From positions 2,314,501 through 2,378,500 of the forward strand of contig CAJHZI010000818.1 in NCBI GenBank assembly GCA_905160935.1: 64,000 nucleotides of DNA, given 5' to 3'. Of this stretch, positions 6,100 to 63,122 are shown piece by piece; position 1 is the first letter of the stretch; every line of letters starts with the position of its first letter. Under the pieces are notes generated by a model. That model saw only the letters and a program-made list of their open reading frames with translations, had not been told where the DNA came from and made no database searches. Origin of the DNA: Enchytraeus crypticus (lineage: Eukaryota; Annelida; Clitellata; Enchytraeida; Enchytraeidae). Made by a program: the position numbers and the translations under genes.

Positions 6100-6275
6100 G
6101 CAGGCGTAGATTATCAACTATTTTCATTTAGCATAGATTATCACATGTCTTCATTTAGCTTAGATTATCACCAGTTTTAATTTAGCTTAGATTATCACCA
6201 GTTTTAATTTAGTTTAGATTATCACATGTCTTCATTTAGCTTAGATTATCACCAATTTCAATTTAGCTTTGTGAA
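6100..6275. repeat. 27-bp minisatellite ending at an exon's acceptor
   Basis: About six units of TTAGCTTAGATTATCACCAG plus seven bases. The last unit runs almost into the polypyrimidine tract of the exon at 6298. Confidence 0.75.
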
Positions 6276-6297
6276 TCACTACTTTTGGTTCCTGCAG

Positions 6298-6501
6298 ATT
6301 TGGGACAGATCTCACTTCCTGGAGAACCTCGCCAGCTATGACGCTCGCTGTGACCTCATCCAGTCGAAGGACGCCAAGCTGGAAGAGACGGAGAAGTTTG
6401 TGAAGGAGTGGAAGATCCAGGTGAAGGCGGAGTATGGGTTTGTGGAGAACAAGGGAAGCACCGACAAGGCTATCGTGGAAATCACTAAGCATTTCAGAAA
6501 T
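6298..6501 (+). CDS. Internal exon of an unrecognised gene, charged helical segment
   Basis: Sixty-eight codons, phase 0 at both ends, acceptor ttcctgcag|ATT and donor AAT|gttagt. GC content and codon use are clearly higher than the surroundings (AAG, CTC, GAG rich). The peptide is charged and probably helical or coiled coil: HFLENLASYDARCDLIQSKD, then KLEETEKFVKEWKIQVK, ending ITKHFRN. I cannot assign a family. A 27-bp repeat array abuts the acceptor side, and a 26-bp array starts at the donor GT. Confidence 0.62.
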
Positions 6502-7012
6502 GTTAGTAAATCAAGAGTGTCAATAGCTGATAGTAAACTAGTGTATCAATAGCTGTTAGCAGAGTATCAAAAGCTGTTAATAGACTAGAGTATCAATAGC
6601 TGTTAATAAACTAGAGTATCAATAGCTGTTAGTCAACCAGAGTATCAATAACTGTTAGTAAACCAGAGTATCAATAGCTGTTAGTAAACTAGAGTATCAA
6701 TAGCTGTTAGTAAACTAGTGTATCAATATCTGTTAGTAAACCAGAGTATCAATAACTGTTAGTCAACCAGAGTATCAATAACTGTTAGTAAACCAGAGTA
6801 TCAATAGCTGTTAGTAAACTAGAGTATCAATAGCTGTTAGTAAACTAGTGTATCAATATCTGTTAGTAAACCAGAGTATCAATAACTGTTAGTAAACCAG
6901 AGTATCAATAGCTGTTAGAAAATCAAGAGTATCAATAGCTGTTAGTAAACTAGAGTATCAATAGCTGTTAGTAAACTAGTGTATCAGTATCTGTTAGTAA
7001 ACCAGAATATCA
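6502..7012. repeat. 26-bp minisatellite starting at an exon's donor site
   Basis: About 19 units containing GTTAGTAAACTAGAGTATCA plus ATAGCT. The first unit begins exactly at the GT of the donor of the 6298-6501 exon, so each unit carries a GTTAGTAA donor-like sequence. Confidence 0.85.
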
Positions 7013-7159
7013 ATAAATAACTTAAAACGAGATAAATGAAGTAGACAACTCCTCTAAATTATTATCTGACTATTAATTGACAGATCAATAAAATATTAAA
7101 TGAAAAAATCATAACAATAGGTCACGTCTGTCAATCAGTGAATTAGTTTAACTTTAACC

Positions 7160-15617: not shown

Positions 15618-16299
15618 TCAGGTTAATGGAATGCCCATATTTTGACGAGCTTTATGCTCTAGCAATAAGTTATCTATTTTAACATGTATTTCATTGAGTT
15701 TTTCGGCCTGAAAACTTTCACCTGACGTTATCTTTGCTCCTTCTCGAACTGAGTCCGAATTCTTGGAAACGGAATCGATTTTCCCGTTCTCTAGCATCAG
15801 ACCGATGCGCCCTTTTTGAATCAAGGTGACATTGGAGCGCCTGTTGATAAAATCCAGCCCACTGACGTTTAGAAATCCGGCGTTCGGTGGTGGAAGCAGT
15901 AGTGTGGAATGACGCCGCTGATCTGATCCAGAGAGAGGTGGAACCTTTCCACCTGGATCAGGATTCGAGTCCTTCAGGCACCCATGCTGAGATTCTGATG
16001 TTTTCGACGGAGAGGTGACTATGTGTCCTGGCAATGTGATAGGAACACCCTGAATGTTCGAATAGGAGTAGGATTGGTTTAGGTAGGCGGCCAGGAAGCA
16101 ACCGACCGGGATAGCGGCGCACATACACGTGCTTCCGAGGATGATGTAAAGCAGGGCGTAGCGAGCTAGACGAGGCACCTTGTGTGAGCGCTGGGTCACG
16201 TGAGCTCTTCTTGATCGCAGCGAGTAGATGAGAGCCGGAATGCCGAACAGTGGAAAGAAGAATAGAAGTAGTATGGAGCAGATGACGTAGAGTTGAATG
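15618..16299 (-). CDS. Exon 3 of the dispanin-like gene, both membrane helices and the C-terminus
   Basis: 682 nt including the TGA stop. The first base completes a Leu codon left by exon 2. Two hydrophobic helices of about 23-25 residues are separated by a basic loop (RSRRAHVTQRSHKVPRLAR). The tail has three N-glycosylation sequons and a Pro-rich stretch (LLLPPPNAGF). A gag|gtataa donor-like site overlaps the stop, but the frame is already closed. Confidence 0.7.
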
Positions 16300-18631
16300 C
16301 TGAAATAAAAGTTAATTTATTGATTATTAGCATAAACTACTAGATACATCGATTAATAATCGTCGATCAAATAAGATTATAAATCAATGAAACATCTTAA
16401 CCACTACAGCAATAAAAAAAGCTAATGTTAACGTCCGTTTCCTCATTCGAAAGCTATGTCAGTGACGGACGAGCCCAGGATTTGAACCGGCAGATACTGG
16501 TCCGCGGTCGAATGCCTTACCGACATCGCCATTAGCTCCAGCAAATGTTAATTATCACTTATTAAATACGTCAATTTTATCGCTGAACGAGTAATAACAA
16601 AATGAATCACTAGTACGCCTACAGCAGATATCTGCTGCAATTAATTTAACTTACAGCCTGTGCTCGGTGATCAGATTTATATGACAAGCGTCGCAAGCCG
16701 GAGGCCCTTGACATGACGAGCCTCCCCTGTCATTCACCAGGGGTTTGACTCGACATATTCGACATTCGAGAGACGGCGCCAGCAGTCTCATCGTAGCGCA
16801 TTTCTCGTCGTGACTGCTGCTGCAGGTTGAGAGGGAAATATTGGGCGACGTCATGGTGGCCGAGGCATTGCTGAGCTTAGACTGACACGCCTAAATAATA
16901 ATTTTAAAAATTACAACATTAAGATCATAGTCAATCATTCAGTTCCTCACTCGGTCAGTCGATCATGCAATCAACCAATCAATAAATCAAACAGTGAGTC
17001 AATCAACGAGTCAATCAACTAGTCGTCGGCCTCAGGGTCAGTCAGTATCCGCCAATCAGTCAAATAATTATTTGATCGTTTATTATTGCACATGAGCACT
17101 AAAATATCTACAAAACTAAACCAGCGACTTTTGAGACAGAATGTTAATATCAATCCTGTTAAACTTGTGAAACGACAAATTGTGGCAGATTATCGTCAAT
17201 CAATCAAAAAAACTAATCAATTACGGTTCAAAGATCAGATGATAAATTCAATAGTTCAATAATAAAGTAATCGGTATTTAATACTTAGTCCCGTGTTGTG
17301 TCCGAGTTTGCTGAAGAATAGACAAAACTTAGACTGCACGCTTTGTAAAAGGCGACAAAGCACTAAGATCTAAACCAACGTCAAAAAGGACATGCGGTTC
17401 GTGAGCGCCTAGGTTTCAGAAATTGCTACACAATTATCTAATCACGACCCTGGTTAAACTGGGATTCAAGGGAAGGTAATAATGATGACTATTACGAAAC
17501 TTGAACTATCGCTGATAGTGCCTCTATCCATCCATCCGTCTATCCATATATCCGTCTATCCATCCATCCGTCTATCCATCCATCCGTCTATCCATCCATC
17601 CGTCTATCCATCCATCGATGCCTATAATACGGCTATCTCTATCTGGCTGCAGCCCTCAATCTAGTGCCATGGCTAAGTACAATGAATCACGCAAAAGCGA
17701 TTCTTACGCCTTTTCTTTCTTACACACTTCATTAATTATAATAACAAAACTGCACGCAGTGATCCGCTCGTAGACAGATTATAGAAATATTATCAAGTTA
17801 ACTGAATCTGTGTCAGCTCTGTTTTGTATTAAACAACAAAGTGAGTGGGTAACTGAGTGTAACTCCGTCAAGTTGGCTCCGCAACTTCTTCAAATAAATC
17901 TAACTTGTATGCTGAAAATTAGAGCTCAATTAGTGCTAATTTTTGCTGGAAGTCCCACAATTGGAACTCACTCAGTTTGGTACGTATTGAGTACCAAAGT
18001 TTTGCAGAGCCAACTTTACGCTGGCTCCGCAACTTTCACATTCGAATTTGAAGCCCATGCTAAAAATTAGAGCTCAATTTGTGCTAATTTCCCACAATTA
18101 GAGCTCGCACCGTTTGCTACTAATCGGGAACCAAATTTGGAGCCATCGTCAAATTGGCTCCACAACATTCTGATGTAAACTTAAAAACTATATTCAAAAT
18201 TAGAGCTCAACTAGTGCTAATGTTTGCTACAACTCTCATAATTAGAGCTCGCTCCGTTCGGTTCTTATTGCGTACCGGAGCTTTGTGGTATATTTTTTTG
18301 CCAGCGTCAAGTTGGCTCTGCATCATTCTTGTGTAAACTTACAAGTAATCTTAATTTATAAATTTAACTAGAGGTCATAGAAGATCATAGAAGGTAGAAT
18401 GGAAGGAAAAGAGGCAGGGGCAGGCCGAGATTAGGTATGTTAGATGATTTAAAGACTCACTCATATGTGGAAATGAAGAGGAAAGCGGAAGACAGAGAAG
18501 AGTGGAGACGTTATATACAATGGATCTGCCAGTAGGCAGTGCACTAAAATATATATATATATGTATGTATGTATATATATATATATATATGTAACATTAT
18601 ATATACAGTATATATAATATATATATGTAAC

Positions 18632-22126: not shown

Positions 22127-24678
22127 ATATCAATTTGATTTTAGCATTTTATCTGTCGAATGCTTTGTCATTCATGTCTGTGAAGCAAACTCCTAACAGC
22201 AGCCTACACTCAATAATGAGCCATCGAATTGTTCCCAATGCAAATGAACATGACTTAATTCAGTCAGGGCAGCCTAAAATTATTTCGATAAAGCTCTGTT
22301 TTACTTCTGCAGCAATTTTCATCGAAACAGTAGCCATCTATCTACGAAAGATAAATTCAACTCCGAAAAGACATTGTATAAATATTTAAAACTTAAAAGT
22401 ATTCCAGTAAATCTATAATGATGTTTGCTTTATTACAATACAAAGTTCACCGAATTAAAATCTAGATCAGTATTAGTTGTACAACATGCATTGAGATGAT
22501 GGATTACAAGCACAATGCATTTGTAAATATATAAAACACTCTCTCGAAGAATTAAAGCCAATTAATTAATTTTAATTTTAATTTTAAAGTTTAATTTAAA
22601 GTTTAAGATAAATTCTAAGATTTAAAGATTTGATTTAAAGTTTAAGAGAAAAATATTCTCTTCACAGTATTAAAAAACTGATATTATTTTGTTGACCTAT
22701 TAAATCAGTTAATAATATTGCCCGAGGAACCCCTCCCTTGTATTAGCATATTGGAATGCATAATCTGTCAATCCTTAACAAAAACATAACAACAATTATA
22801 TAAAAACACAGCGATATCACGTTATATATGGTGACTAATTTATCACAGCCGGAATCTTCACAAATTATTTAGCATTAACAGATAATCCAGGCTTAGTTTC
22901 TTAAATATTGCGGCTCAAGGTACATTGTGAAGACATATTATTTATGCTTTGAAAACTTCGTTCACCATTTGCGTGAAGCCTCAGGAATCATAAAAAAATC
23001 AAATATTTTACATATATTTAAACCTAAGCTATTATAAATATCTGCAGTAAATTACAAAACTGGACTTTTATAGCTAATTGTAACATCTTAAACAAAGTGT
23101 TACTTAAAACGCAGAGTAAGGTGATGTGAAATGTTCACGGTATGGATGGCTTTGGCGAAAAAAATAAAATGCAATTAAAATATAACTTACCAAAACATTT
23201 CAGTGAAAATAAAAATATGGAAATATTTTATTTTATTTCTATATTTAATATTTTCTTCTTAATAGATATTATATTTGATTAAATAACGGTAATTTTATAT
23301 TATAAGCAATTTAAATAATTACAACAAATTATTAAGTAATTAATATTTGCTAAAATTATTATAATTTATGTCATTTGTAAAATATTACATTTTTAATTGC
23401 AAATCCACTGTCATCTTGTAATTTGTTGAAAATTGATCTAAAGAGCTCAAAAATGTCATTTTCAGGATATATCCGGAACCTTGAGAACAAACTTATACTA
23501 AAAACTGAGCATGCTTCTTAAACGGCGAACTAAAATATGGGAGAAGGTCATAGAGAACTACAGCAAACTAATAGTCCTCACATTCCATGTGCCCACTTTT
23601 ATCCCTTTACGGAGCATGGGATGTCCTCATGGTAACACAATAATAACAACAATTAGAGTGCTACAGTCATCAATGACAACATCGAGCACTATTGAGACAA
23701 AATCAAGCCGGCGAGCAAAAAGAAGGTTCAAAAACGGTGCAAAAATGGTATATCTGTGGGCACCCAAGGTGCCGACTGGCGGTGAGATTCTTACCACCCC
23801 TTCCCCATTTAAGGGGTGCACGGGACTGGAGGCATTCGTTTGTTTGAATTTGTTTGAGACCTTTCTTTTCTTGCGGGATATGTTTTGGATGAGGTGGGCG
23901 CCCATACCTTCCTCAGCTTCGACTAACATTTACTGGGCAGAGGCGTAATTCCCTGAGAAAACTGTCCTGTTTACCCTAGCAAACTAATATACAGTGTTCA
24001 AAGTTATAAGCATAAATTATACTTATACTTAATGGATTAAATTTAGGAATATAATTAATCTTAAGATGTAAAGTATTGCATTCTTAGCTCATTATTCCTT
24101 GAAGGACAAGTTATTAAGAAGTACACGATGACTCGAAACATCCGCCTTGGACGGCTTTTTGCTGGCCCTAGAAAGACAGATCAATAAATATATTGTCCAT
24201 TTATGAGACTTTATTCTGCCGGTAATCGTCAGACACAAAACGAAGCGAAGGTTTGCTGTATAACATATGATGCGATTTAATTTGATTTTACAATAGGGAA
24301 CACTACTCTATCTAATTTACTTACATCTTTCTGGAAAGCTTCACAAGACCTTTCGCTCGACGGACAATTCGCTGTCTCAGTATTAGCAACAGAAGCATTG
24401 TCCAGTATCTCCATATTAATTCTAGATGTACAATCCAATGCAGCAGTGTTCAGAATAGATCCACTATCTAGTATGACAGAATTTGTTTTATAATTGTTCA
24501 TATCAGGTGAAAGAGTTTGACTTTCATCGACTTGAGAAGTAGAGTTTAGTTTGCTGGAATCGCTGTCTGTATTGACTAACTCAGGGTTTTTCCTATTCTT
24601 TGTTTGACAGCCATCCTGAGTCTTTGTAGAAGTATTATCTAGCTTTATCCAAACTTCTTTATCCCGTGGGTCTGTCAT
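15618..24678 (-). CDS. Two-helix membrane protein resembling the dispanin/CD225 family, with a Cys-rich segment; three exons, about 423 residues
   Basis: Exons 24678-24325, 16890-16655 and 16299-15618 join in consistent phases with donors gat|gtaagt and ggct|gtaagt and acceptors tatttag| and atttcag|. Order: polar Ser/Thr/Asn-rich N-terminus (1-118); ECRIC and CDACH about 20 residues apart, a possible four-Cys metal site; first helix about 198-222 ending FGIPALIYSLRSRRA; basic loop; second helix ARYALLYIILG... to about residue 265; then about 160 residues with NQS, NVS and NVT sites and an amphipathic C-terminus. Helix, small-residue AxxYS, basic loop and second helix follow the CD225 pattern (compare IFITM and PRRT proteins). 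The family call is inferred from pattern; the function is unknown. A further 5' UTR exon is possible, since an acceptor-like tttgtag lies 7 bases before the ATG. Confidence 0.68.
16421..16542 (-). mobile_element. tRNA-derived SINE family B, copy 1 (intronic)
   Basis: Minus strand: GCTGGAGCTAATGGCGATGT (A-box region TGGCGATGTCGG), a box-B-like GGTTCAAATCCTGGGC, then GACATAGCTTTCGAATGAGG and the tail AACGGACGTTAACA. It lies between exons 2 and 3 of the dispanin-like gene. Confidence 0.7.
16655..16890 (-). CDS. Exon 2 of the dispanin-like gene, Cys-x2-Cys pairs
   Basis: 236 nt, phase 0 in and phase 2 out. It starts ACQSKLSNASATM and ends ACDACHINLITEHR. Cysteines fall as CRIC, a single C, then CDAC, with a following His, compatible with a small zinc site just before the first membrane helix. 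No exact RING, RINGv or LITAF spacing is seen. Confidence 0.65.
16922..17040. repeat. Degenerate CAATCA/AGTC simple repeat
   Basis: Irregular runs of TCAATCAAC and GAGTCAATCAAC-type motifs in the first intron of the dispanin-like gene. Confidence 0.6.
17289..17482 (+). mobile_element. SINE-like family D, copy 2
   Basis: Shares CCCGTGTTGTGTCCGAG, AAAGGCGACAAAGCACTAAG, GTGAGCGCCTAGGTTTCAGA and CCTGGTTAAACTGGGATTCA with the 9398 copy, ending in AATAATGATGA. Confidence 0.65.
17521..17617. repeat. 16-bp minisatellite (CCAT-rich)
   Basis: Six units of CCATCCATCCGTCTAT. The open frame across it (repeats of HPSI/YPSI) is a by-product. Confidence 0.85.
17866..18345. repeat. About 150-bp unit repeated three times
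   Basis: Each unit contains TTGGCTCCGCAACTT, AAATTAGAGCTCAA, GTGCTAATTT and CACAATTAGAGCTC. Three units plus a partial fourth, moderately diverged. Unit identity unknown; it occurs nowhere else in the window. Confidence 0.7.
18368..18548 (+). mobile_element. LINE family F, 3' end copy 3
   Basis: AGAGGCAGGGGCAGGCCGAG encodes the GRPR motif in one frame, followed by codons for LDDL, SYVEMKRKAEDREEW and then TGGATCTGCCAGTAGGCAGT. Frameshifts and stops break it. The expected (GA)n tail is replaced by the AT array at 18548. Confidence 0.65.
18548..18682. repeat. (AT)n/(ATGT)n microsatellite
   Basis: Interrupted runs of AT with ATGT and ATGTAACATT interruptions. Confidence 0.9.
18785..18992 (+). 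mobile_element. LINE family F, 3' end copy 4
   Basis: Begins near CATTGTCATATCCTTAGAGG (decayed GHILRGN motif) and runs through GAAGGAAGAATGGAAGG, AGGGAGACCTAGACTTG and GGCCTGCCGATAGGCAGT to an AGACAGAGAAAGAAAAAG tail. Confidence 0.65.
19192..19270 (+). mobile_element. LINE family F, short 3' fragment
   Basis: ATGCCATGGACCTGCCTTTA, then GGCAGTGCACTAGAAAAAG, the last ~70 bases of family F. Confidence 0.5.
19551..19912. repeat. Pseudo-palindromic repeat pair with telomere-like centre
   Basis: CAAGGTCACGAYCAAGGT occurs at about 19608 and 19892 in the same orientation, while GTAGAGATTAGATCAATGAC (19626 onward) is inverted relative to TCATTGATCTAATGTCTAC (19820). The middle has CTCTAACCCTATCCCTAACC, resembling short telomeric sequence. 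Possibly a small foldback element. Confidence 0.45.
20362..20448 (+). mobile_element. Family G 3' tail with (TTGA)n
   Basis: CCTGAGTGATATTGCCTTAT, then GGCGAGGAACCGGACGTCAA, TTTTTATTGG and about eight TTGA units: the tail of family G with its simple-repeat end intact. Confidence 0.6.
20971..21690 (-). mobile_element. Retroelement family G, long copy 2 (intronic)
   Basis: Minus orientation. The 3' end GGCGAGGAACCTAACGTTAA and a TTGATTG tail lie at 20971-21010. Upstream, CCATCTCGTAGTCTTCGCTC and AATCTACCATGGGCAGACGC match the 490-1027 copy. A plus-strand frame of 80 codons at 21439-21681 is antisense to the element and not convincing. Confidence 0.55.
22027..22126. repeat. (CTA)n microsatellite
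   Basis: About 33 uninterrupted or nearly uninterrupted CTA triplets. It opens homopolymer frames (Tyr, Thr, Val) that have no supporting gene structure. Confidence 0.95.
22390..23500. other. Very AT-rich intronic stretch
   Basis: Lies inside the large first intron of the dispanin-like gene. Short TTTAATTTAAAG-type repetition at 22560-22640; nothing else recognised. Confidence 0.4.
23634..23985 (-). mobile_element. LINE family A 3' end, split by a 200-bp insertion
   Basis: Minus strand: the shared end with TTTTTGCTCGCCGGCTTGAT, TCAATAGTGCTC, GATGACTGTAGCACTCTAAT, TGTTGTTATTATTG. The match to other copies stops after GCAAA at about 23745 and resumes with TTCCCTGAGAAAACTGTCC at about 23946, leaving 200 extra GC-richer bases. 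Confidence 0.6.
24325..24678 (-). CDS. Exon 1 of the dispanin-like gene
   Basis: 118 codons from ATG (context cgccATGa) to the donor AAAGAT|gtaagt, phase 0. Soluble, acidic and rich in Asn, Ser and Thr, with no domain that I recognise. Low-complexity NT, NS and DS pairs suggest a disordered cytoplasmic tail, which is where dispanins carry theirs. Reading past the donor adds only 15 codons before a stop. Confidence 0.65.
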
Positions 24679-24699: not shown

Positions 24700-25660
24700 T
24701 AACAGCGTAAATTTAAACTTAGAATATTAGTCAATGCTCTCTGAGGTCATTTTGCGTGGGCAACAGCTGATGATGATGGTCATTCGAAACAAAAAATATA
24801 TTGCAAGCACCCCCATATACATTTGCTCATCCTAGGCTAAACCATGAGACTCTGAATGCCAACAACAAAATAAACATTTCTTGTGGGCTGATCTTAATGT
24901 GAGATGCACGCCTGTTACAGTTATTACATGGACACTGCAGGTAACATGCATGTATTCCTACACTGGAAATATTTAATTTGACCCTACCGATATTCGCACA
25001 TAAATAACTTTCCTGATATTACAGACATTAAAACGAACTTTCTCTACATTTGAGGAAATTGTATGGCCAATTTCAAGAGTACCGGTCTGCTCGTTATGCT
25101 TTATTAGAATAAGAATTATGGGAATCGGTTATAGAGGACACAGTGTATATTTTGCTTGTACATGTATAATTGTCTATTATTCAGATGACTTTTTAATATT
25201 ATACATGATTTTGGAATTCAAGCATCTACGACTGGAAACTGACAAAAATTAAAAATTTCAGCTTTGTAAACTTTTATGGGACTATAACAAAAAATAAAAG
25301 CCATAAAAATGAAAGGAATAATAATAAAAAGTATTACTCAAAAATTCAAGAACAGAGTGATGTATCTAAGTAAACATCAGTACTATCTAATATCTAGACC
25401 CATTTCCATAAATTTCTTACTAACACAAATTAACGTAGTAACACATAGTAACACGAATAGGATAATCACATAATTAGAGTGCTACCTTTATCCGCGAACA
25501 CTGAGAACCTAAATTTTAAATACATTCTAGTCTATGATTAAATAATAATTCATGATCTAATATGGCGAAGTAAGGAGGGTGGAAAATCAGTCAAAGAAAA
25601 GATTCAAATAAATTTATATAATACGACTTACATAGAGGCACTATAATGAGCTGAGCCGTT
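24700..25660. other. AT-rich stretch upstream of the dispanin-like exon 1
   Basis: This should contain the promoter or a 5' UTR intron of the minus-strand gene. No TATA box, CpG-rich island or clear first exon could be picked out. Confidence 0.3.
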
Positions 25661-53517: not shown

Positions 53518-56500
53518 GTAAGTTAATAAAATTCCTAGTTCGTTCTGCCTAAAGGTCATTTAATATTCTTTATACCTTTAAGAATATGTGTGACTTTACA
53601 AAAGAATATTTAATATAAAGATCGTAAAGTTTTTGCAGTTCCTTTTTGCACTGCAAGGTCACCTATAATAACAACAACATTAATTATCACAACTGTTATG
53701 TTAATATCAGATTTTTTACACTGGTTCAGGAAGTCGTTAAGACTTGTAACACCAGTCTGGTTGTAATAATATACATCATCAGACATAAATTGTAAAGTGG
53801 AAAATTACACCATTTCACACCTTGATGAGTCAATCCAACTACTCAAATATAATATAACAACAGAGAGCTACAGTCGTCAGTGACAATGTCGAACACAATT
53901 GAGGTCAAATCAAGCCGGCGAGCAAAAAGAAGGTCCAAAAACGGTGCAAATTCCAAAATCCTGAAAATCTGTCCAAAAATCTTTCGATAGATAATTAATT
54001 GAACTGTCAATTTGTTAACTAGTGCTATACTTTTGTAGTAATATTAATGTGTATCAGAGAAGATATTAATGATGCAGATTTATTTAATATTTTCTTAATC
54101 TTTTATTATGGTTGTACATTGAGTTGTTGCATGTTGTAGAATGGTCACGTTCTAGCGAGCGTGCGTCCATCGTCTCACGCCGCTAGTTATGAAGAAGTTC
54201 TTTCCGTTCCTGAAGGCAAAGTAACGACGCTAAAGAATCTGCTTAAAGTTGCTTCGGAGGAATCTAATGCTCCAACTGCGACTGTAAGTATAACTTTGGG
54301 GTACTTTGTAATGAATTTTCTTTATTTACTTTGGAAATATCACATTGTAATTAATTTATGAAGTGTTTAAGATATTTTTCAGGTTAAATTGCAAACTGAA
54401 CTTCATTTATTATCTTTTAACAGAGTTTTAATTTAATGCAAAATAGTAAGATGGTGCTTATACTATTAACAGGAGTAAATACTGGTTTAATATTAATTTA
54501 TAGAAAGCATTATATAGCCAAATTAATGCAGTCATAGAATGTTGTAAAACATTATAAATAGTCCAGGTTCTGTATAGAATAATTTAAGGCTGTAAAAAGC
54601 CGCAAAACCAATTTTAACGTCAGTTTCATCTCTCGAAAGCGACCTCAGTGACAGGAAACCCAGAATTTGAACCTACCCATCAGGAGTGTAGCTGGCCAGG
54701 CACTTCTGAGGGTCCGGACCCCAATCCATGGCCTAGGGCACTTACACAATTCGTCTAAATGTGAAGTTTTGGGTATTAAGTTAATTTGGTAAATGTAAGC
54801 AAACAATTATAATTATCACAATAAATATTTAACCTCTGATTCCTCACCATTAATTAAGCAATGTCAAGGTGGCTTGTTCGGAGAACATACTCACAAATTT
54901 ACTTAAGGATTTCCGCTAAAGTCCGAAATCTGTTTCTTGAATTTATGTTAGCTGATCTACATGATAAATTTAGGTCTACCTGACATTATCGTCTCATATA
55001 GAGTAAAGTATACTCTATGCGAGAAGATAATGTCACAGTAATGCAAATACCAACAATGCATTCAATGCTTATTTAAATCAAGATTAAATTAGCTATATTA
55101 TTATATTATTATTTATTTATCATACACATCACAATTGTCATTCATAATAAGCAGTTAGAGCGCATGAACAGAAATAAAGGCCCTCGAGTGGCACTTATAT
55201 ATTCAGAATTTTAAAAATACAAACATTTGCATTAATTATTACTTATGTTCAGTAAAATCCATAAGTAGTATAAATATGTGCCAAGATAAATTTAGCAGAT
55301 CATGTAGTAATCAATCCACTATAGTTTTATAGCATCACTTACCATGCGAGGTATGAAGTTTTTATCATTCAAGGAGCTATGCTTAATTGGTAGTTGGTAT
55401 GGCATAGCTTCTTTTGGCAGCGTTTCTTTGGGTTTGATATGAATGTTGGTTTAGTGGAGGCAAAAGTGGAGCCAGCAAGTGGTCAGGATGGTAACAAACT
55501 GCACTAAACAGCTTACTATCAGCTGACAAGCAGATATTCTCAAAAGTTATCTCTTTATTGTAGAAACAAGCCCTTTTTGCACCCTTAGAAATGCTTCTAG
55601 GCGGTTTTTATCATCAGCATTGGTAAACCCCCACAAAATTGTGATGGGTAGAGTAATTTCACAAATCTGTGAGCGTGTAGGTGTGATGTGCAAGTGCCAA
55701 ACTGGTTGGATTGTTTGAATAAATTTAGGCATTGGATGTGCATGCTAAGCTATCAAATTAGCACTGGACGTTATACTGAATGTTAATGCTAAACTATCGG
55801 CTGAGCACTGGATGTTATATTGGATGTGAGTGCTAAGCTATCGGCTGAGCACTGGATGTTATATTGGATGTAAGTGCTAAGCTATCGGCTGAGCACTGGA
55901 TGTTATATTGGATGTGAGTGCTTAGCTATTGGCTGAGCACTAGATGTTATATTGGATGTAAGTGCTAAGCTATTGGCTGAGAACTGGATGTTATATTGGA
56001 TGCGAGTGCTTAGCTATTGGCTAAGCACTGGATGTTATATTGGATGTGAGTACTGAACTGTTGACTGAACATTTGATGTTACCTAACCATTACTTGTAAT
56101 GCATGTAACAGGTTGGAGTGTGGATAGACGCTGGCAGTCGATACGAGAATGAGAAGAACAACGGTGTAGCTCATTTTATTGAGCGTTTGGCTTTCAAGGT
56201 TTGTCACTATGCTAACTCTGCTGTTATACTGTAGCCTATGATTGATTGACTATATCCTATGATTGATTGACTGTAGCCTATGATTGATTGACTCTAGCCT
56301 ATGATTGATTGACTGTAGCCTATTTTTTAAAATACTTAACTTCTCACTGACCTGTGTTCCTTAAATTGGATATGAGATCCCATCATGTCATACTATTAAT
56401 TATTAGGCGTAGACATTGCACGTCTGATATTGTCGTATTTAATTCCATAATCAATTATCTTATCGTTATGTATGAGTGCTTAGCTATCGGCTAAGCGCTG

Positions 56501-59500
56501 GATGTTATATTGGATGTGAGTGCTTAGCTATCATCTAAGCACTAGATGTTATATTGGATGTGAGTGCTTAGCTATCAGCTGATAGCTAAGCACTAATACT
56601 TATGAATAATACTTATGAGTTTTATGTAATTTAAAAATTTTCAATTAACATTTTCTTCGATTCAAGATGTTTTGTATTCTTTTTTATAGGTTTTGTAAAT
56701 GAAACTGTGTTAATGTTAAGCTGTTAAGCAATTTAATGTTCATGTGTAAGTACCAGAGAGGAATAGAAAAGGTCTATTTGTATTCCAATCCTTGTAAACT
56801 GAGATTCAAGGACGATGATGATGATATTGATGTGTTTGTTTGTTACAGGCTGAGACAAACATGTTTAATTGATTTATTGGCATATTACTGGCTTGACTAA
56901 TTGTATGGTTTAATTGATTTGTTGGCATATTACTGGCTTGACTAATTGATGATTTCTGAACCTCCAACAGGCCTAAGGTTGAAAGTGGACCCAGACTTGA
57001 GAATGTATTTGCGTACTTGGAAAATAAAAAAATATGCAGAGATTTGTCGATCAGCTTTGCGTGATTACTAGCTGATTGATTGATGTATTGACTGATTGAT
57101 GTATGAAATAATTAATTGATATATTGTCTGACTGATGTATTGCTTAATTGATTTATTGATGACTAATTTATTGATTGATGCAATTAATTAATAAATTGAT
57201 TGATTGATGTTCAGGGCACTTCAAAGAAGCCTCAGACTGATCTGGAGCAGGAAGTGGAGGGTCTTGGAATGCACCTGAGCTCTCACTCATCGAGAGATCA
57301 GATTGCTTTCTATGCCAAGTGCTTGGCCAAGGATGTTCCTAGAGGTATCTGGAGATTTATCTAGGGAGTGCTGTTTATTGTTTATTTAGTGTTTATTGCT
57401 GTTTGTTTCATCATCATCATCATCTTCCCTTAAATCCCAGTTTAACCAGGGTCGGAATACGAATATTATTTATTTACTGTTTATTGCTGTTTATTGTATT
57501 GTTTATTATTTATTTAAAGTTTCAGAACAATAGAACAATGGTTCAATAGTCCATGAAGAATGAGAATCCAGTTGTCGCAGTGGCTGAGATGATGCGCAGT
57601 CCAAGCCTATGCAAGCATGTAAAGAATTTGATCTACCAGCCAGTAGTGTCGTTCTACACGTGCTAACTAGTTGTCTTTCTTGTAGCTAGATAGCAGCGTG
57701 CGTGTATTGTGTAGGTCAGCTGTTATCCTATACCCGGCTGTTATTTTGTAGATGGTAGCTTGTATGTGGTATGCATTGCAGCTGTTGATATCAGAGCAGA
57801 TGTTTATAGACGGTAGCTTGTATTTACTAGATGTTATTGCTGTTAAGGTTTCAGCTGATGTTGTACAGATGGTAGCTTGTATTTATTGTGCATTGCAGCT
57901 GTAGAGATCCTAGCAGATATTTACAGATGGTAGCTTATATTTACATTGTGTCTTAGCTGTGGAGATCCTAGCAGATACATACATATGGTAGCTTATATTT
58001 ACATTGTAGCTGTGGCGATCATAGCAGATATTTATAGATGGTAGCTTATATTTTACATTGTGTTGTAGCTGTGGGGATCCTAGCGGATACATACAGATGG
58101 TAGCTTATATTTACATTGTAGCTGTGTAGATCATCGCAGATATTTACAGATGGTAGATTATGTTTACATTGTGTTGTAGCTGTGAAGATCCTAGCAGATA
58201 TTTACAGATGGTAGCTTATATTTACATTGTGTTGTAGCTGTGGAGATCCTAGCTGATGTTGTACAGAATGCAACGTTCAGTGACGCAGAGATAGAGAAGC
58301 AGAAGACTAACATGATCAGAGAGTTCCAGGTACGTTACTGTAACTGCTTCAAGAATTTCTAAGTTGTATTTCTACAAGTGGCTTGCAACAGAGTTCTATA
58401 AACTCTACAGAATTTGCATCGTTTTTGTTAAGTTAAAGGTCTAATCATGTTTCCTATGATATTTTGCCTATACATTTATTGCACAAATTTTGTATAGTCA
58501 TGCTAATTCATAAATGTCTAAACAGTAATGTAGCAATGTCTGCAGTATTCACTGCTAGGTTTGATCTCAATCACATTAAGCAAAGTTATTATTCTAATAG
58601 ATTGTGTGGATCTTACTATGTATATGAAAACATCAGATCTGGTATATTAAAAATCGTATATTAATGATAATTGTACTGCTTGGAATCAAATTACACCTTC
58701 AGCATTAGTTCTCTGTCTATTTCTCTAGAAATTAAAACGATCGTTACTAGGTAATTGGCAAAAATTCTTTACGTAATTTATAATTATGTTGAGTTGTTAA
58801 ACTTGGAAACAAGAATAATTAATTGAAAATAATTGACTTTTGCTTTCCTAATTAATTTGGAGCATTTTGTCTATATTTTTGGCTTGCTTTCTTTTTATTC
58901 ACTTTCCTGTGTTGTGTTTATATATATTTTATATTAATAATAATATAAAGGTTTAGCGTCCATTTCCTCATACAAAGATGATGTCAGGGACGTCATATTA
59001 ATATATATGTCAGGGAAGGGTTCCAAAGGCGAACCCTAGCCTGGACCAGGTTCATTAATTCTAAAACGCTAAACTTAAAAATATTGATCTTTAATAGTAG
59101 ATGACTACTCCTCATTTACAATTTCTAATTACAGTTGTATTTCTAACTGACACATTGGTAAAGTATTATAAATGAAGTGTATTGAGTTCACTTAAATTAT
59201 ATTTTATTTAACTCAAACACGATACAAGAAAACAATATATTACATGAAACTAAAATGTCCTTATATGACAAATAATGGAATTAAATCTAATAATCAAATA
59301 TTAATAATAGAGTTGAAAATAACTTAATAATATACAAAATAAAATGAAAGAACTGATACTACTATTAATTAAATATCAAACTAAAAAAAGTTTGAGAAGT
59401 ACTCTGTTATAGAGAAATCGCAACACTCGTCACTAAATACTATCTCTCAGAACATAAAGGCAAACTAATTCCTATTTAACATCCTCGTTTCTTCCATCAC

Positions 59501-62500
59501 AAAATCACAGAACTATGTCACATTTCAGCTTGCCTTATCCATGACAATATCTATAATGATATAATATACTTAATGACTACAACATCAAACCCTAGAATCC
59601 TCTCTTAATGAAATGGTTCAAGTCTATCACAACTTCCTTGAGTTCAAAACACCCAACTCAACTTCCGGCCTTCTCGAAGTAACTATCAGCAACGTACGAC
59701 CCTAGAACCCACAGTTTCCTATGACTGTCTGACGTCTTGTTATCTCCACTGGCAGTTTCTAATAAACCACTATAAACACAACTCAGGGGATACCTATCCA
59801 TAGGACTTTCCCCTCTTTTGAAGTGTTAAAATGAGTTTAACACTTCCTAAGCCTTTCTTAACTTACAACATGTGAGACTGAAATTAATCCATACTAATTA
59901 ATCCATACAATCGGATATAATCTTACTATCTCATGTGGATCGATACCGAGTCAAAACAATGTCTATTACAACAAAATAGTCACTTCGAATAGCTGGCGAT
60001 AAATAAAAAGTTTAATAAGACTTATCTTAAATCTTAAACTAAAGTTTAATAACAATACAAAATCAAGCTTCTCGCTTGCGGCCAACTGTCGAAGTCCAAT
60101 CACTTGTGTTCACTCCAGCCACAGACCCAGGCACGGAACAATAGACGTACAGGGCAAGAAACTTGCCCTGTGCTAGTGGAAGTACAAAGGTTATTGGTGG
60201 AGTTTATTGGAATATTTAATATTATCTCTACTCCTACCTTGACAATATATGTACATTTTAAACATTTATATGATGACTGATAGCTAGGTGGTTAACAAAA
60301 TAGGTTCCATGTACCTTTTTTGAATGCCTAGTGTTCATTTGTGTGCATTTGTTTGTCTTTGCCTATACTGTGTATAGATATAGTGATGTATTGTCGAAAT
60401 AAGCGACTCTTTATATTGAACAACTGATCAGCATGTCTCCTATGTAACGAGCAACGCTCCTTGTTAGAATTATTATAATTTATTTGAAATTAGTAAGTAA
60501 AAGCCCAAAAGTAACTTGATTTTAATAAAAGTAATTGTCATCAATAATGCTGTAATCAAAGAACAGCAATTACTTCTATGATGGTTGAACGTAACTTGTT
60601 ACTAAATCCCTTTGATACTAGTCATTTTCAATGCCACTAATGCCTTATTTTTTACTACTGGAGAAAACCACTAATTGATCGATTGATTTATTGATAGATT
60701 GATTGATTGATTAGGAAGCGGAGAGTAACCTGACTACTGTTGTCATGGACTACCTACACGCCACTGCCTACCAAGGCACGCAACTTGGTCGTTCCGTTCT
60801 TGGCACTACCAGCTCTGTCAAGTCAGTAAACCTTCTCTAAAGCGTTGCTTAATTTTCCTTGTTATTATATGGAGTTTGATACTGCTTAGAAATTAATAGC
60901 ATTTGTTGACTTCAGGATACTCTAGTTTGAGCATGATGTTGTTTCTACTGCAGCTATGATTCGTAGTAAATATTCCATCGCCTGTGTTAGAGCTAATGAT
61001 TTCACTACTGAAGAAAAAGCTGGTCAAGCTGATGTTAACGTCAGTTTCCTCACTCGAAAGCGATGTCAGTGACGGGCGAGCACAGGATTTGAAGCCTGCA
61101 CATACAGATTCGTGATCGAGTATATTACCAACGTCGCCATTGGCTCCAGCCAATGAAAGTACTATAGTGTTGAGTTAGCTGTAAAGTTTATTTATTTCTA
61201 CAATGTAGCAGTGTTAATGTCATCATCATCATCATCATCTTCCCTTGAATCCCAGTTTAACTAGGGTCGGGATACGAATAGACTGTCTCAAATCCTCTCT
61301 ATCCTAGCAGTGCTAATATATAATTATTAAAATGATCCATGTTTATTTTAAGAGAAATTCAGAGTAATAGTATTTGAACATGCATGCCATGCTGAATTAT
61401 TGCAGGAACTTTTTTCCATATATGATTTGCAATGTTGTAAGTAATCTTGGATGGATTTAGAATAATTGATTTGAGTGTCTTCTTTGTTTTCTCACTTTAT
61501 TGGATATTGTACATACAAATTACGTTAAACGTTAAAATTTAAATGTTAATTTAATTAAATGTTAATTTAATTAAATGTTGATAATGCCAAATGTGAAATT
61601 TGATATTCAGGAATGATTTTTGGAATTGGAGAGAGCATTTGTGAATTTAAATTTGGCGAGGATTTCTCCTGTTAAATAAAAGAAACAGGAATTGGCTTAA
61701 TTCAGTTTTGATCCTGATACTTAGATGTAAAACGGAATTTGACAGAATCTCTTTGATTTTAGCTGTGCTCTCTTTTAGGTTCTTTTATGTGGCATGCTAG
61801 ACTAATTTATGATGAGTGGGATCTAATAAAGTCTGCCATTGATTGATTGATTGATTGATTTACTTATTGGTATGCAGGTCACTGAAGCGGAGTGATATAA
61901 CTGAGTTTGTTGGCACTAACTTCAAGCCACCCCGCATGGTTCTAGCCGGAGCTGGAGGTTTGATTTTTCTATCAATTAATGTCTTCAAATTAATTTATAA
62001 AATTAAATGTTTTAGCTTAACTACTGTAGCAGAAATCGTGGCTTCAACAGATCAGTCTTTATCTGGTGGTTCTTCAAGGGCAGATCCTTTGATAGTTTTT
62101 TATGTTATTTTAACTAAATATATTTAGGGTTAATAAAATTATATTTGGCTAAAATTAGGAATGCTATAACTTTAATTTTCCATGCTATATCTGGGCCATT
62201 GAAGAATAGACCAGTTGTAAACTACTCATATCGTAGGTAATGAGAAACTTCCTCAGAAGTCATATTTTTTCATAGTTATATGAGCACTGCAAAAGGTATA
62301 GATGAGGCATAACTTTTTGTGCAGGGATTAACTTGTTGATCATCTATGGAGTGTGAAAGCAGATTCAAGTATGAATATGTCTCTTGACTGAATATATACG
62401 TGTACAGTGTATATATAGAGATAACTTTAATAATTTGAGCTTAGCATTAGAGTCTAAACTGCCCGGAGATCAAAATTAACCAATTATTTTCAGACCTCGT

Positions 62501-63122
62501 TTTCATTAGTTTGCTAAGACTTTGACAACTTCGTATATCTCTGAAAAGTATGACCAATTAATTATTTTTTTAGCTGAATGAAATGAATCTATTAATTTTA
62601 AAAATATAGCAAATATCAATTGGTATATCAGAGAGAGAAAGAGAGAGAGAGAGAGAGGGTGTTGCTATATTTACGTAAGTTAAATGATTGATTGCAGGAG
62701 TAAAGCATGATCAGCTGGTTAATTGATTGATTGCAGGAGTAAAGCATGATCAGCTGGTTAATTGATTGATTGCAGGAGTAAAGCATGATCAGCTGGTTAA
62801 TTGATTGATTGCAGAAGTAAAGCATGATCAGCTGGTTAATTGATTGATTGCAGGAGTAAAGCATGATCAGCTGGTTAATTGATTGATTGCAGGAGTAAAG
62901 CATGATCAGCTGGTTAATTGATTGATTGCAGGAGTAAAGCATGATCAGCTGGTTAATTGATTGATTGCAGGAGTAAAGCATGATCAGCTGGTTAATTGAT
63001 TGATTGCAGGAGTAAAGCATGATCAGCTGGTACAGCTGGGAGAGAAGCTGTTCAGTGGAATGTCTCTAACGTACGAGAATGAAATCCCTGTCGTCAGTCG
63101 TCCACGCTTCACTGGTAGCGAG
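53455..63122 (+). CDS. UQCRC1: Cytochrome bc1 complex core subunit 1 (M16 family, MPP-beta-like), 5' eight exons, partial at the right edge
   Basis: Core scaffold subunit of respiratory complex III, on the matrix face of the mitochondrial inner membrane; a paralogue of the mitochondrial processing peptidase beta subunit (PMPCB). Exons: 53455-53517, 54140-54283, 56112-56198, 57215-57344, 58238-58329, 60715-60821, 61878-61957, 63010-63122. Every junction is GT-AG and phase-consistent, giving 272 residues of a family usually near 480. The start has a basic, acid-free presequence ([16 protein letters not shown]). Recognisable blocks are [66 protein letters not shown] and RFTGSE. The M16 zinc motif HxxEH reads HFIER, so peptidase activity is unlikely; this favours UQCRC1 over PMPCB, although several positions ([15 protein letters not shown]) are PMPCB-like. 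The remaining exons must lie beyond 64000. Confidence 0.88.
53848..53980 (-). mobile_element. LINE family A 3' end, in UQCRC1 intron 1
   Basis: Plus-strand view: ATAACAACAGAGAGCTACAG, GTCAAATCAAGCCGGCGAGC, AAAAACGGTGCAAATTCCAA. Here TTCC follows GCAAA directly, without the 200-bp insertion seen at 23746. Confidence 0.65.
54140..54283 (+). CDS. UQCRC1: UQCRC1-like exon 2
   Basis: Forty-eight codons between acceptor ttgtag| and donor ACT|gtaagt, phase 0 at both ends. It encodes the segment before the M16 fold plus the first strand ([20 protein letters not shown]), matching the family pattern VPETxVxxLxNGLRVASE. Confidence 0.85.
54610..54682 (-). mobile_element. SINE family B, truncated copy in UQCRC1 intron 2
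   Basis: Minus strand keeps GGTTCAAATTCTGGGTTTCC and the tail GAGATGAAACTGACGTTAAA; the box A half is missing. Confidence 0.55.
55100..55735 (-). mobile_element. LINE reverse transcriptase C-terminus and 3' end, in UQCRC1 intron 2
   Basis: Minus strand reads [20 protein letters not shown], then FLRVQKGL, matching the LPAWxGFxxxxxxNRxxAFLRR motif near the end of non-LTR ORF2, followed by pieces such as [17 protein letters not shown]. The 3' end AGGGCCTTTATTTCTGTTCA is shared with the 49297-50465 element. Frameshifted and dead. Confidence 0.62.
55735..56075. repeat. 44-bp minisatellite in UQCRC1 intron 2
   Basis: About 7.5 units containing GATGTTATATTGGATGTGAG, TGCTAAGCTATCGGCTGAGC and ACTG. 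A smaller block of the same unit lies in intron 3 at 56471-56594, on the far side of exon 3. Confidence 0.88.
56112..56198 (+). CDS. UQCRC1: UQCRC1-like exon 3: degenerate zinc motif
   Basis: Twenty-nine codons, phase 0 at both ends, acceptor aacag|GTT and donor AAG|gtttgt. It carries [18 protein letters not shown] followed by HFIERLAFK. In active processing peptidase this motif is HFLEH; the Arg in place of the second His should abolish zinc binding. Confidence 0.9.
56234..56320. repeat. 21-bp minisatellite
   Basis: Four units of CCTATGATTGATTGACTGTA plus G, in intron 3. Confidence 0.85.
56471..56594. repeat. 44-bp unit block ending in a perfect palindrome
   Basis: About 2.5 units of the intron 2 repeat. 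At 56563-56594 the last unit forms a 32-bp perfect palindrome with arm AGTGCTTAGCTATCAG. Confidence 0.85.
56752..56830 (+). mobile_element. Family D 3' end fragment
   Basis: AGAGAGGAATAGAAAAGGTC, TATTTGTATTCCAATCCTTG, AACTGAGATTCAAGGACGAT followed by (GAT)n. The 3' end of family D with its tail. Confidence 0.55.
56861..56951. repeat. 45-bp tandem duplication
   Basis: Two units containing TTTAATTGATTTATTGGCAT and ATTACTGGCTTGACTAATTG, with only one or two differences. Confidence 0.85.
57068..57208. repeat. (TTGA)-rich tract before exon 4
   Basis: TGATTGATTGATGTATTGAC-type simple repeats run up to the exon 4 acceptor (gttcag| at 57209-57214). Confidence 0.8.
57215..57344 (+). CDS. UQCRC1: UQCRC1-like exon 4
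   Basis: 130 nt, phase 0 in and phase 1 out (AGAG|gtatct). It begins [18 protein letters not shown] and ends LAKDVPR. The stretch [11 protein letters not shown] replaces the usual AHLNAYTSREQ-type sequence of the family, a mild divergence. Confidence 0.88.
57405..57460 (-). mobile_element. Family D 3' end fragment
   Basis: Plus-strand view: (CATCAT)n, then CTTCCCTTAAATCCCAGTTT and AACCAGGGTCGGAATACGAA, the inverted 3' end of family D. Confidence 0.6.
57700..58237. repeat. 52-58-bp minisatellite built from exon 5's acceptor and 5' end
   Basis: At least six good units (from about 57896) plus older diverged ones contain TGTAGCTGTGGAGATCCTAG, CAGATATTTACAGATGGTAG and CTTATATTTACATTG. The first half equals the exon 5 acceptor (tgtag|) and its first coding bases. 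The array ends exactly at the real exon. Confidence 0.9.
58238..58329 (+). CDS. UQCRC1: UQCRC1-like exon 5
   Basis: 92 nt, entered in phase 1 (tgtag|CTGTGG) and left in phase 0 (CAG|gtacgt). It encodes [20 protein letters not shown] and then [11 protein letters not shown]. The acceptor and first 25-30 coding bases are the founder of the minisatellite that fills the upstream intron. Confidence 0.88.
58330..60714. other. UQCRC1 intron 5, mostly unannotated
   Basis: A family G 3' tail in inverted orientation lies at 58950-59000 (GTTTAGCGTCCATTTCCTCA, ATGTCAGGGACGTC). The block 59170-60230 differs in composition (C-richer on the plus strand) and may be an unrecognised insertion; it contains the hairpin GAAGTGTTAAA/TTTAACACTTC at 59819-59847. 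No ORF. Confidence 0.35.
60715..60821 (+). CDS. UQCRC1: UQCRC1-like exon 6
   Basis: 107 nt, phase 0 in, phase 2 out. It encodes [20 protein letters not shown] and continues through [15 protein letters not shown]. The donor is set at AA|gtcagt (60822) because only this choice keeps exon 7 open; the nearby tca|gtaaac alternative would run into a stop. The acceptor follows a (TTGA)n tract. Confidence 0.85.
61029..61151 (-). mobile_element. SINE family B copy in UQCRC1 intron 6
   Basis: Minus strand: GGCTGGAGCCAATGGCGACG, GGCTTCAAATCCTGTGCTCG, TCACTGACATCGCTTTCGAG, GAGGAAACTGACGTTAACAT. All five family B copies in this window are on the minus strand. Confidence 0.72.
61216..61306 (-). mobile_element. 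Family D 3' end fragment
   Basis: (ATC)n, then CTTCCCTTGAATCCCAGTTT, AACTAGGGTCGGGATACGAA and TAGACTGTCTCAAATCCTCT, the inverse of the family D end at 9600-9670. Confidence 0.62.
61570..61862 (+). mobile_element. Possible retroelement 3' end with (TTGA)n tail before exon 7
   Basis: GGGATCTAATAAAGTCTGCC followed by about five ATTGATTG units looks like a polyadenylation signal and simple tail. The element body has no second copy in the window. Confidence 0.35.
61878..61957 (+). CDS. UQCRC1: UQCRC1-like exon 7
   Basis: 80 nt, acceptor tatgcag|GTCACTG, donor GGAG|gtttga, phase 2 in and phase 1 out. It encodes [20 protein letters not shown] and then VLAGAG, matching the family pattern LTEYxxTHYKxPRMVLAAAGG. 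Confidence 0.88.
62633..62657. repeat. (GA)n tract
   Basis: Short GA run in intron 7, just before the 39-bp array. Confidence 0.85.
62680..63009. repeat. 39-bp array of eight duplicated 3' splice sites in UQCRC1 intron 7
   Basis: Each unit is TTAATTGATTGATTGCAG followed by GAGTAAAGCATGATCAGCTG and G. The first AG is at 62696-62697 and the genuine exon 8 acceptor at 63008-63009, exactly 8 x 39 = 312 bases later. Units are almost identical; one (about 62812) has AAGTAAAGC. The array therefore copies the acceptor, its upstream (TTGA)n and the first 21 coding bases of exon 8. Confidence 0.95.
63010..63122 (+). CDS. UQCRC1: UQCRC1-like exon 8, last exon in the window
   Basis: 113 nt, entered in phase 1 at attgcag|GAGTAAAG and left in phase 0 at GAG|gtaaat. 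It encodes [19 protein letters not shown] and ends [11 protein letters not shown], the end of the first M16 domain. Its first 21 bases also occur eight times in the intron just upstream; only the last copy continues into open coding sequence. Confidence 0.88.

Follow-up and report, generated by a model that had tools for sequence, protein, structure and literature searches.

The window (the whole stretch of Enchytraeus crypticus DNA that was analysed, 64,000 nt in length with a G+C content of 34%, lower than that of the lancelet Branchiostoma) contains on its plus strand seven exons of a gene for UQCRC1, core protein 1 of complex III. The gene was identified through the peptide encoded by exons 7 and 8, whose first matches among PDB sequences were complex III core protein 1 chains (best E value 5e-16). 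The best 22 of the 35 listed PDB sequences had core protein 1 or bc1 complex names, and mitochondrial processing peptidases ranked after these. The exons were located by a frame-by-frame search of the translated plus strand; exon 1 was not found in that search, and the gene model consists of exons 2 to 8:

54140..63122, plus strand: UQCRC1 exons 2 to 8, whole model
54140-54283, plus strand: exon 2
56112-56198, plus strand: exon 3
57215-57344, plus strand: exon 4
58238-58329, plus strand: real exon 5
60715-60821, plus strand: exon 6
61878-61957, plus strand: exon 7, 80 nt, with donor GTTTGA
63010-63122, plus strand: real exon 8, 113 nt, followed by donor GTAAAT

When joined, these exons formed a single open frame of 251 codons, with GT-AG borders at all seven donors and all seven acceptors. 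As far as seen, the gene appears intact over the exons modelled. Exon 8 reaches to about residue 240 of the 446 in chain 1bcc_A, and a donor comes directly after it; later UQCRC1 exons are therefore expected.

Pfam scans of the translated plus strand (4001-63999, three frames), the translated minus strand (4001-33999, three frames) and seven ORFs found Peptidase_M16 and a weak CD225 match, with all remaining matches having E values above 0.04. The CD225 (interferon-induced transmembrane) match was to a 232-aa ORF on the minus strand (15618-16316) and, at an E value of 4e-5, was below the Pfam cut-off. No near DNA match was found among phage records. Related 44-bp units flank UQCRC1 exon 3 in the same orientation (55731-56051 and 56473-56580). 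The TRF consensus of the second of these arrays has an inverted repeat around AGCTATCAGCT, and a strict pattern for this inverted repeat occurred at four places in the 55731-56051 array and at none in 56473-56580.

The junction of intron 7 and exon 8 is occupied by a 39-bp tandem array, for which TRF reported 9.1 copies with 99% matches (62679-63031). The features of this region are:

62679..63031, plus strand: nine head-to-tail copies of the intron 7/exon 8 junction, 39 bp each
62698..63009, plus strand: stretch from the first decoy acceptor to the true acceptor (CAG ends 62697 versus 63009)
62698, 62737, 62776, 62815, 62854, 62893, 62932 and 62971, plus strand: decoy exon starts
62670..62674, plus strand: TTTAC, branch-point-like (yTnAy); its A (62673) lies 25 nt upstream of the first decoy exon start

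Each unit consists of 19 nt of intron end (GTTAATTGATTGATTGCAG) and 20 nt of exon start (GAGTAAAGCATGATCAGCTG), a composition that supported the proposal of the initial annotation that the units are copies of a genuine intron-exon junction. The CAGs of the eight decoy acceptors end at 62697, 62736 and so on to 62970, and that of the true acceptor at 63009, such that the first and last acceptors are separated by 312 bases, or 8 x 39. Together with the TRF result, these positions confirmed the eight decoys at 39-bp spacing that had been described, beginning 312 bases before the true acceptor. The exonic part of the repeat, given there as 21 bases, required a correction: the exon start is indeed copied, but the repeated part is 20 nt, and the match of the real exon 8 to the unit extends over 22 nt, the next two bases (GT) agreeing as well.

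Two substitutions in total were found across the nine units, one in the intronic part of unit 1 and one in inner unit 4, in which the first exonic base is changed from G to A. Apart from that one exonic base of unit 4, units 2 to 8 do not differ from the true unit in any of their 19 intronic or 20 exonic positions. With two substitutions in nine units the array looks young, in agreement with the recent expansion that had been suggested. A 31-base pattern from the array was not found in bacterial and archaeal contigs. The other strand has a 145-aa open frame with a 13-residue repeat (62628-63065, minus strand), which exists because 39 is divisible by three and which has no sign of being a gene.

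When exon 7 was joined to each of the nine acceptors, the frame was open to the end of exon 8 only from the last, and that open frame is the one that matches core protein 1. Joining to any of the eight decoys kept the frame and led to an in-frame TGA nine codons past the junction-spanning codon, after the peptide GVKHDQLVN in seven cases and EVKHDQLVN in unit 4. This bore out the earlier statement that use of a decoy would preserve the frame yet truncate the protein. Judged from protein homology, the last acceptor is most likely the one used. The decoy stops precede a later exon junction (exon 8 being followed by a donor), as in a poison exon.

The TTTAC motif at 62670..62674 is presumed to be the ancestral branch point of intron 7. 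Motifs of the yTnAy type were also found in the other copies, with their A at -15 and -11, as compared to -25 for the motif in the first copy's own flank. In plain scanning, as outlined in PMC1431707, the AG closest to the branch point on its 3' side is taken, and by this rule the first exon-8 decoy should be preferred. What distinguishes the last acceptor is that the real exon, with a 5' splice site of its own, directly adjoins it. The true exon 8 is 113 nt in length and the decoy exons are 152-425 nt. An RNA fold that hides the decoys was considered and rejected, because repeated units give nothing to single out the last acceptor from the first. The fold of 62660-63122 consisted of nested pairing between units; its energy was unremarkable, with a z-score of -1.53 and 11 of 100 shuffles folding at least as well.

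The exon-8 array is not a singular design, as intron 4 of UQCRC1 ends in a second, older array of like layout, composed of nine diverged copies of the exon-5 junction that are 53-59 bp in length:

57753..58267, plus strand: second array, nine copies of the intron 4/exon 5 junction

In the units of this array, an intron end of 24-30 nt (in the true copy, TGGTAGCTTATATTTACATTGTGTTGTAG) is joined to 29-30 nt from the start of exon 5. Compared to the true copy, its eight decoys together had 199 matches, 20 mismatches and 17 gaps in their intronic halves, and 195 matches, 38 mismatches and 7 gaps in their exonic halves. The AG was retained in seven of the eight, and the intronic mismatch rate by itself would predict about the same number (0.91 squared x 8 = 6.6); there is thus no visible sign that the exon-5 decoys have been either purged or specially maintained. 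Joined to exon 4, all eight, the AG-less decoy included, met a stop. The boundary-spanning arrangement thus arose twice in UQCRC1, and the divergence of the copies suggests that the exon-5 array has been borne for a long time. If all acceptors with an AG competed equally in both introns, 1/9 x 1/8 of transcripts, or about 1.4% (about 1/72), would be productive by simple arithmetic. Such a level would be implausibly low for a core subunit of complex III, and we infer that the position of an acceptor must be discriminated.

Minisatellite-like tandem repeats that span an exon-intron boundary have been described by at least two papers in genes of the lancelet (Branchiostoma), where they are called "mirages" (PMC3087553, PMC3902484). 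Elsewhere in the window, two other arrays adjoin an exon-like ORF (about 6298-6501) that had no Pfam or PDB match and whose acceptor is likely the CAG ending at 6297. Just before this ORF there is a 27-bp array with a repeated TTTAG (6107-6286; seven listed). At its 3' end a 26-bp array begins (6501-7015), in which 19 GTTA-type sites were listed, the first in the context TCAGAAAT/GTTAGTAAAT; this array is possibly a donor-side mirage.

The load of tandem arrays in the window is considerable, with 37 arrays listed that cover 12.1% of all bases and 18.2% of those within the gene; the list was taken by hand from 82 TRF rows with overlaps merged, and does not include arrays with a period below 12 or a small number of short rows, among them 25290-25329 and 22566-22651. 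Random placement, in which 19 arrays longer than 100 bp were used out of the 37 listed, covered a mean of 1.38 of the 14 splice junctions. The probability that at least two of the seven acceptors would be covered was 0.15 over the window, and 0.20 when the gene's four arrays were placed within the gene. Based on these values, an excess of arrays at splice junctions was rejected, and the junction arrays would need no special cause beyond selection sparing those that leave the exon whole.

These results bear on the suggestion of the initial annotation that the array sets UQCRC1 dosage. Under such control the decoys would be used in part, their TGA would lead to nonsense-mediated decay and the number of copies would tune UQCRC1 output. 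The presence of a stop within ten codons in all eight exon-8 decoys, the match of units 2 to 8 to the true unit bar one exonic base in unit 4, and the position of the best-placed branch-point-like motif, which belongs to the first decoy, are all consistent with this. However, no mark of selective upkeep was found on the exon-8 array, the exon-5 decoys diverge, and the junction arrays are not above chance level. In addition, the published mirages are said to leave regular splicing undisturbed, as RT-PCR evidence described in PMC3087553 and PMC3902484 indicates that it continues. Together with the existence of a second, older array, these points left control of dosage by nonsense-mediated decay unsupported, and we consider it quite improbable.

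Runs of (TTGA)n were found before the following acceptors:

57195-57208, plus strand: (TTGA)n run before the exon 4 acceptor
60697-60712, plus strand: (TTGA)n run before the exon 6 acceptor
61838-61860, plus strand: (TTGA)n run before the exon 7 acceptor
62995-63006, plus strand: (TTGA)n run before the true acceptor of exon 8

A sense run of at least 10 bases thus lies within 30 nt of four of the seven UQCRC1 acceptors (exons 4, 6, 7 and 8). The binomial probability of this was 6e-8 against the window and 5e-5 against the gene, in a test that was conceived after the pattern had been seen, that left the 39-bp array out of the background, and in which one of the four acceptors is the exon-8 array's own true acceptor. 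Sense runs also occur in the gene away from acceptors (four in the 56228-56323 array, plus 57073 and 57170), and one of the seven UQCRC1 donors has a run within 50 nt. There was no antisense run of ten bases in 54140-63122, and three further acceptors of the window, inspected by eye, all lacked a run within 30 nt (two in the CD225-like minus-strand gene and one at the ORF at 6298). A broken, TTGA-rich stretch was observed further upstream of one of the CD225-side acceptors, at about 16930-17020.

The overlapping TTGAT sequences of a tract all conform to the yTnAy branch-point motif. They would supply uridines as well, so that the tract plus any AG would make an acceptor. We think it rather unlikely that (TTGA)n tracts are ready-made 3' splice-site modules that seed boundary-spanning duplications, with their copy number modulating splicing. 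If they are, splice sites would give rise to minisatellites and minisatellites to splice sites.

We consider it probable that the exon-8 array is a mirage-type minisatellite which arose from the splice junction and is tolerated since the acceptor adjoining the real exon is used. Its origin would have been a short tandem duplication at a 2-bp GT microhomology, whose breakpoints lay 19 nt upstream and 20 nt downstream of the intron 7/exon 8 junction. By eye, a microhomology common to both breakpoints was seen at the unit joints of both arrays (GT at exon 8 and AGA at exon 5), which would fit a duplication of the microhomology-mediated or slippage type. Growth to nine units could have proceeded by slippage or unequal exchange, the ordinary behaviour of a minisatellite. 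As the duplicated block lies upstream, the last unit continues into an intact exon 8, and consequently the protein would be unchanged as long as the spliceosome takes the last acceptor. The choice of this acceptor would most likely come from exon definition, by means of the real exon and the 5' splice site that lies downstream of it, and the eight copies upstream would be tolerated as part of the intron, affecting output little or not at all.

With two substitutions among nine units, the array seems to have grown recently. This would also fit a variant (allelic or somatic) in the sequenced individual which lowers the function of that copy and is leaving the population. Length differences between haplotypes and in the soma, of the kind that the initial annotation proposed with its variable copy number, have been reported for mirages: in the account of PMC3087553, BflGb6 has 6 and 3 units on two haplotypes and the Adh3 mirage shows somatic instability. 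The exon-5 array, however, suggests that arrays of this kind persist until their copies diverge, and we regard a short-lived, harmful variant as very unlikely. Tandem arrays can also be misassembled, and PMC3087553 states that one mirage seems to be wrongly assembled in the draft genome. An assembly artefact or a pseudogene is nevertheless extremely improbable here, given the seven exons with their intact open frame and GT-AG borders, the diverged exon-5 array, which is not expected from repeated copying of one read, and the dozens of other tandem arrays in the window. The exon-8 array may represent a minor allele, with an error of assembly being the less likely option; our preferred reading is still that of a tolerated, mirage-type minisatellite.

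NAGNAG tandem acceptors are competing acceptors that lie 3 nt apart. They are named in PMC1431707 and resemble the exon-8 array in that acceptors compete ahead of one exon. The UQCRC1 acceptors differ in their spacing, which is 39 nt and not 3 nt, and in that every upstream choice leads to a stop. Rogers' intron gain through duplication of an AG/GT proto-splice site, as cited in PMC3087553, likewise creates new potential splice sites. By comparison with that process, the duplicated segment in UQCRC1 sits at an existing junction. Within the exon-8 unit the GT-AG distance is 19 nt, and the 20-nt "exon" would shift the frame. Animal introns need to be longer than 19 nt, and nothing in the UQCRC1 array points to a new intron.

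By the anatomy of its sequence, the UQCRC1 exon-8 array joins the known class of mirages, and the existence of such a class is not new. Lancelet mirages are described in Adh3, the globin genes BflGb6 and BflGb9, troponin C and PGBD5 (PMC3087553, PMC3902484), with troponin C and PGBD5 added by PMC3902484; Canestro 2002 and Yuasa 1998 are cited on lancelet mirages through these two papers. As in those genes, an intron-exon boundary is tandemly duplicated in UQCRC1 and splice signals are kept in many units. The units consist of an intron end and an exon start (19 + 20 nt at exon 8 and 24-30 + 29-30 nt at exon 5), as described for BflGb6, and the 39 bp of the exon-8 unit falls inside the 10-72 bp range given for Adh3. 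The authentic junction persists as the copy adjoining the intact exon. With respect to edge and inner units, edge unit 1 of the exon-8 array differs by one base and inner unit 4 likewise.

UQCRC1 differs from the lancelet mirages in having two arrays in one gene, each with nine copies, and its exon-8 array differs in its 39-bp units at 99% identity and its (TTGA)n acceptor tract. The identity of the acceptors in units 2 to 9 over 19 intronic and the first 20 exonic bases, bar the one base of unit 4, would make this array a clean test of acceptor choice, for which first-AG scanning predicts use of the first unit, exon definition use of the last, and equal competition use of each in 1/9 of cases. 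Since UQCRC1, an essential gene, has two mirage-type arrays that differ in age, the question of acceptor choice could be asked twice.
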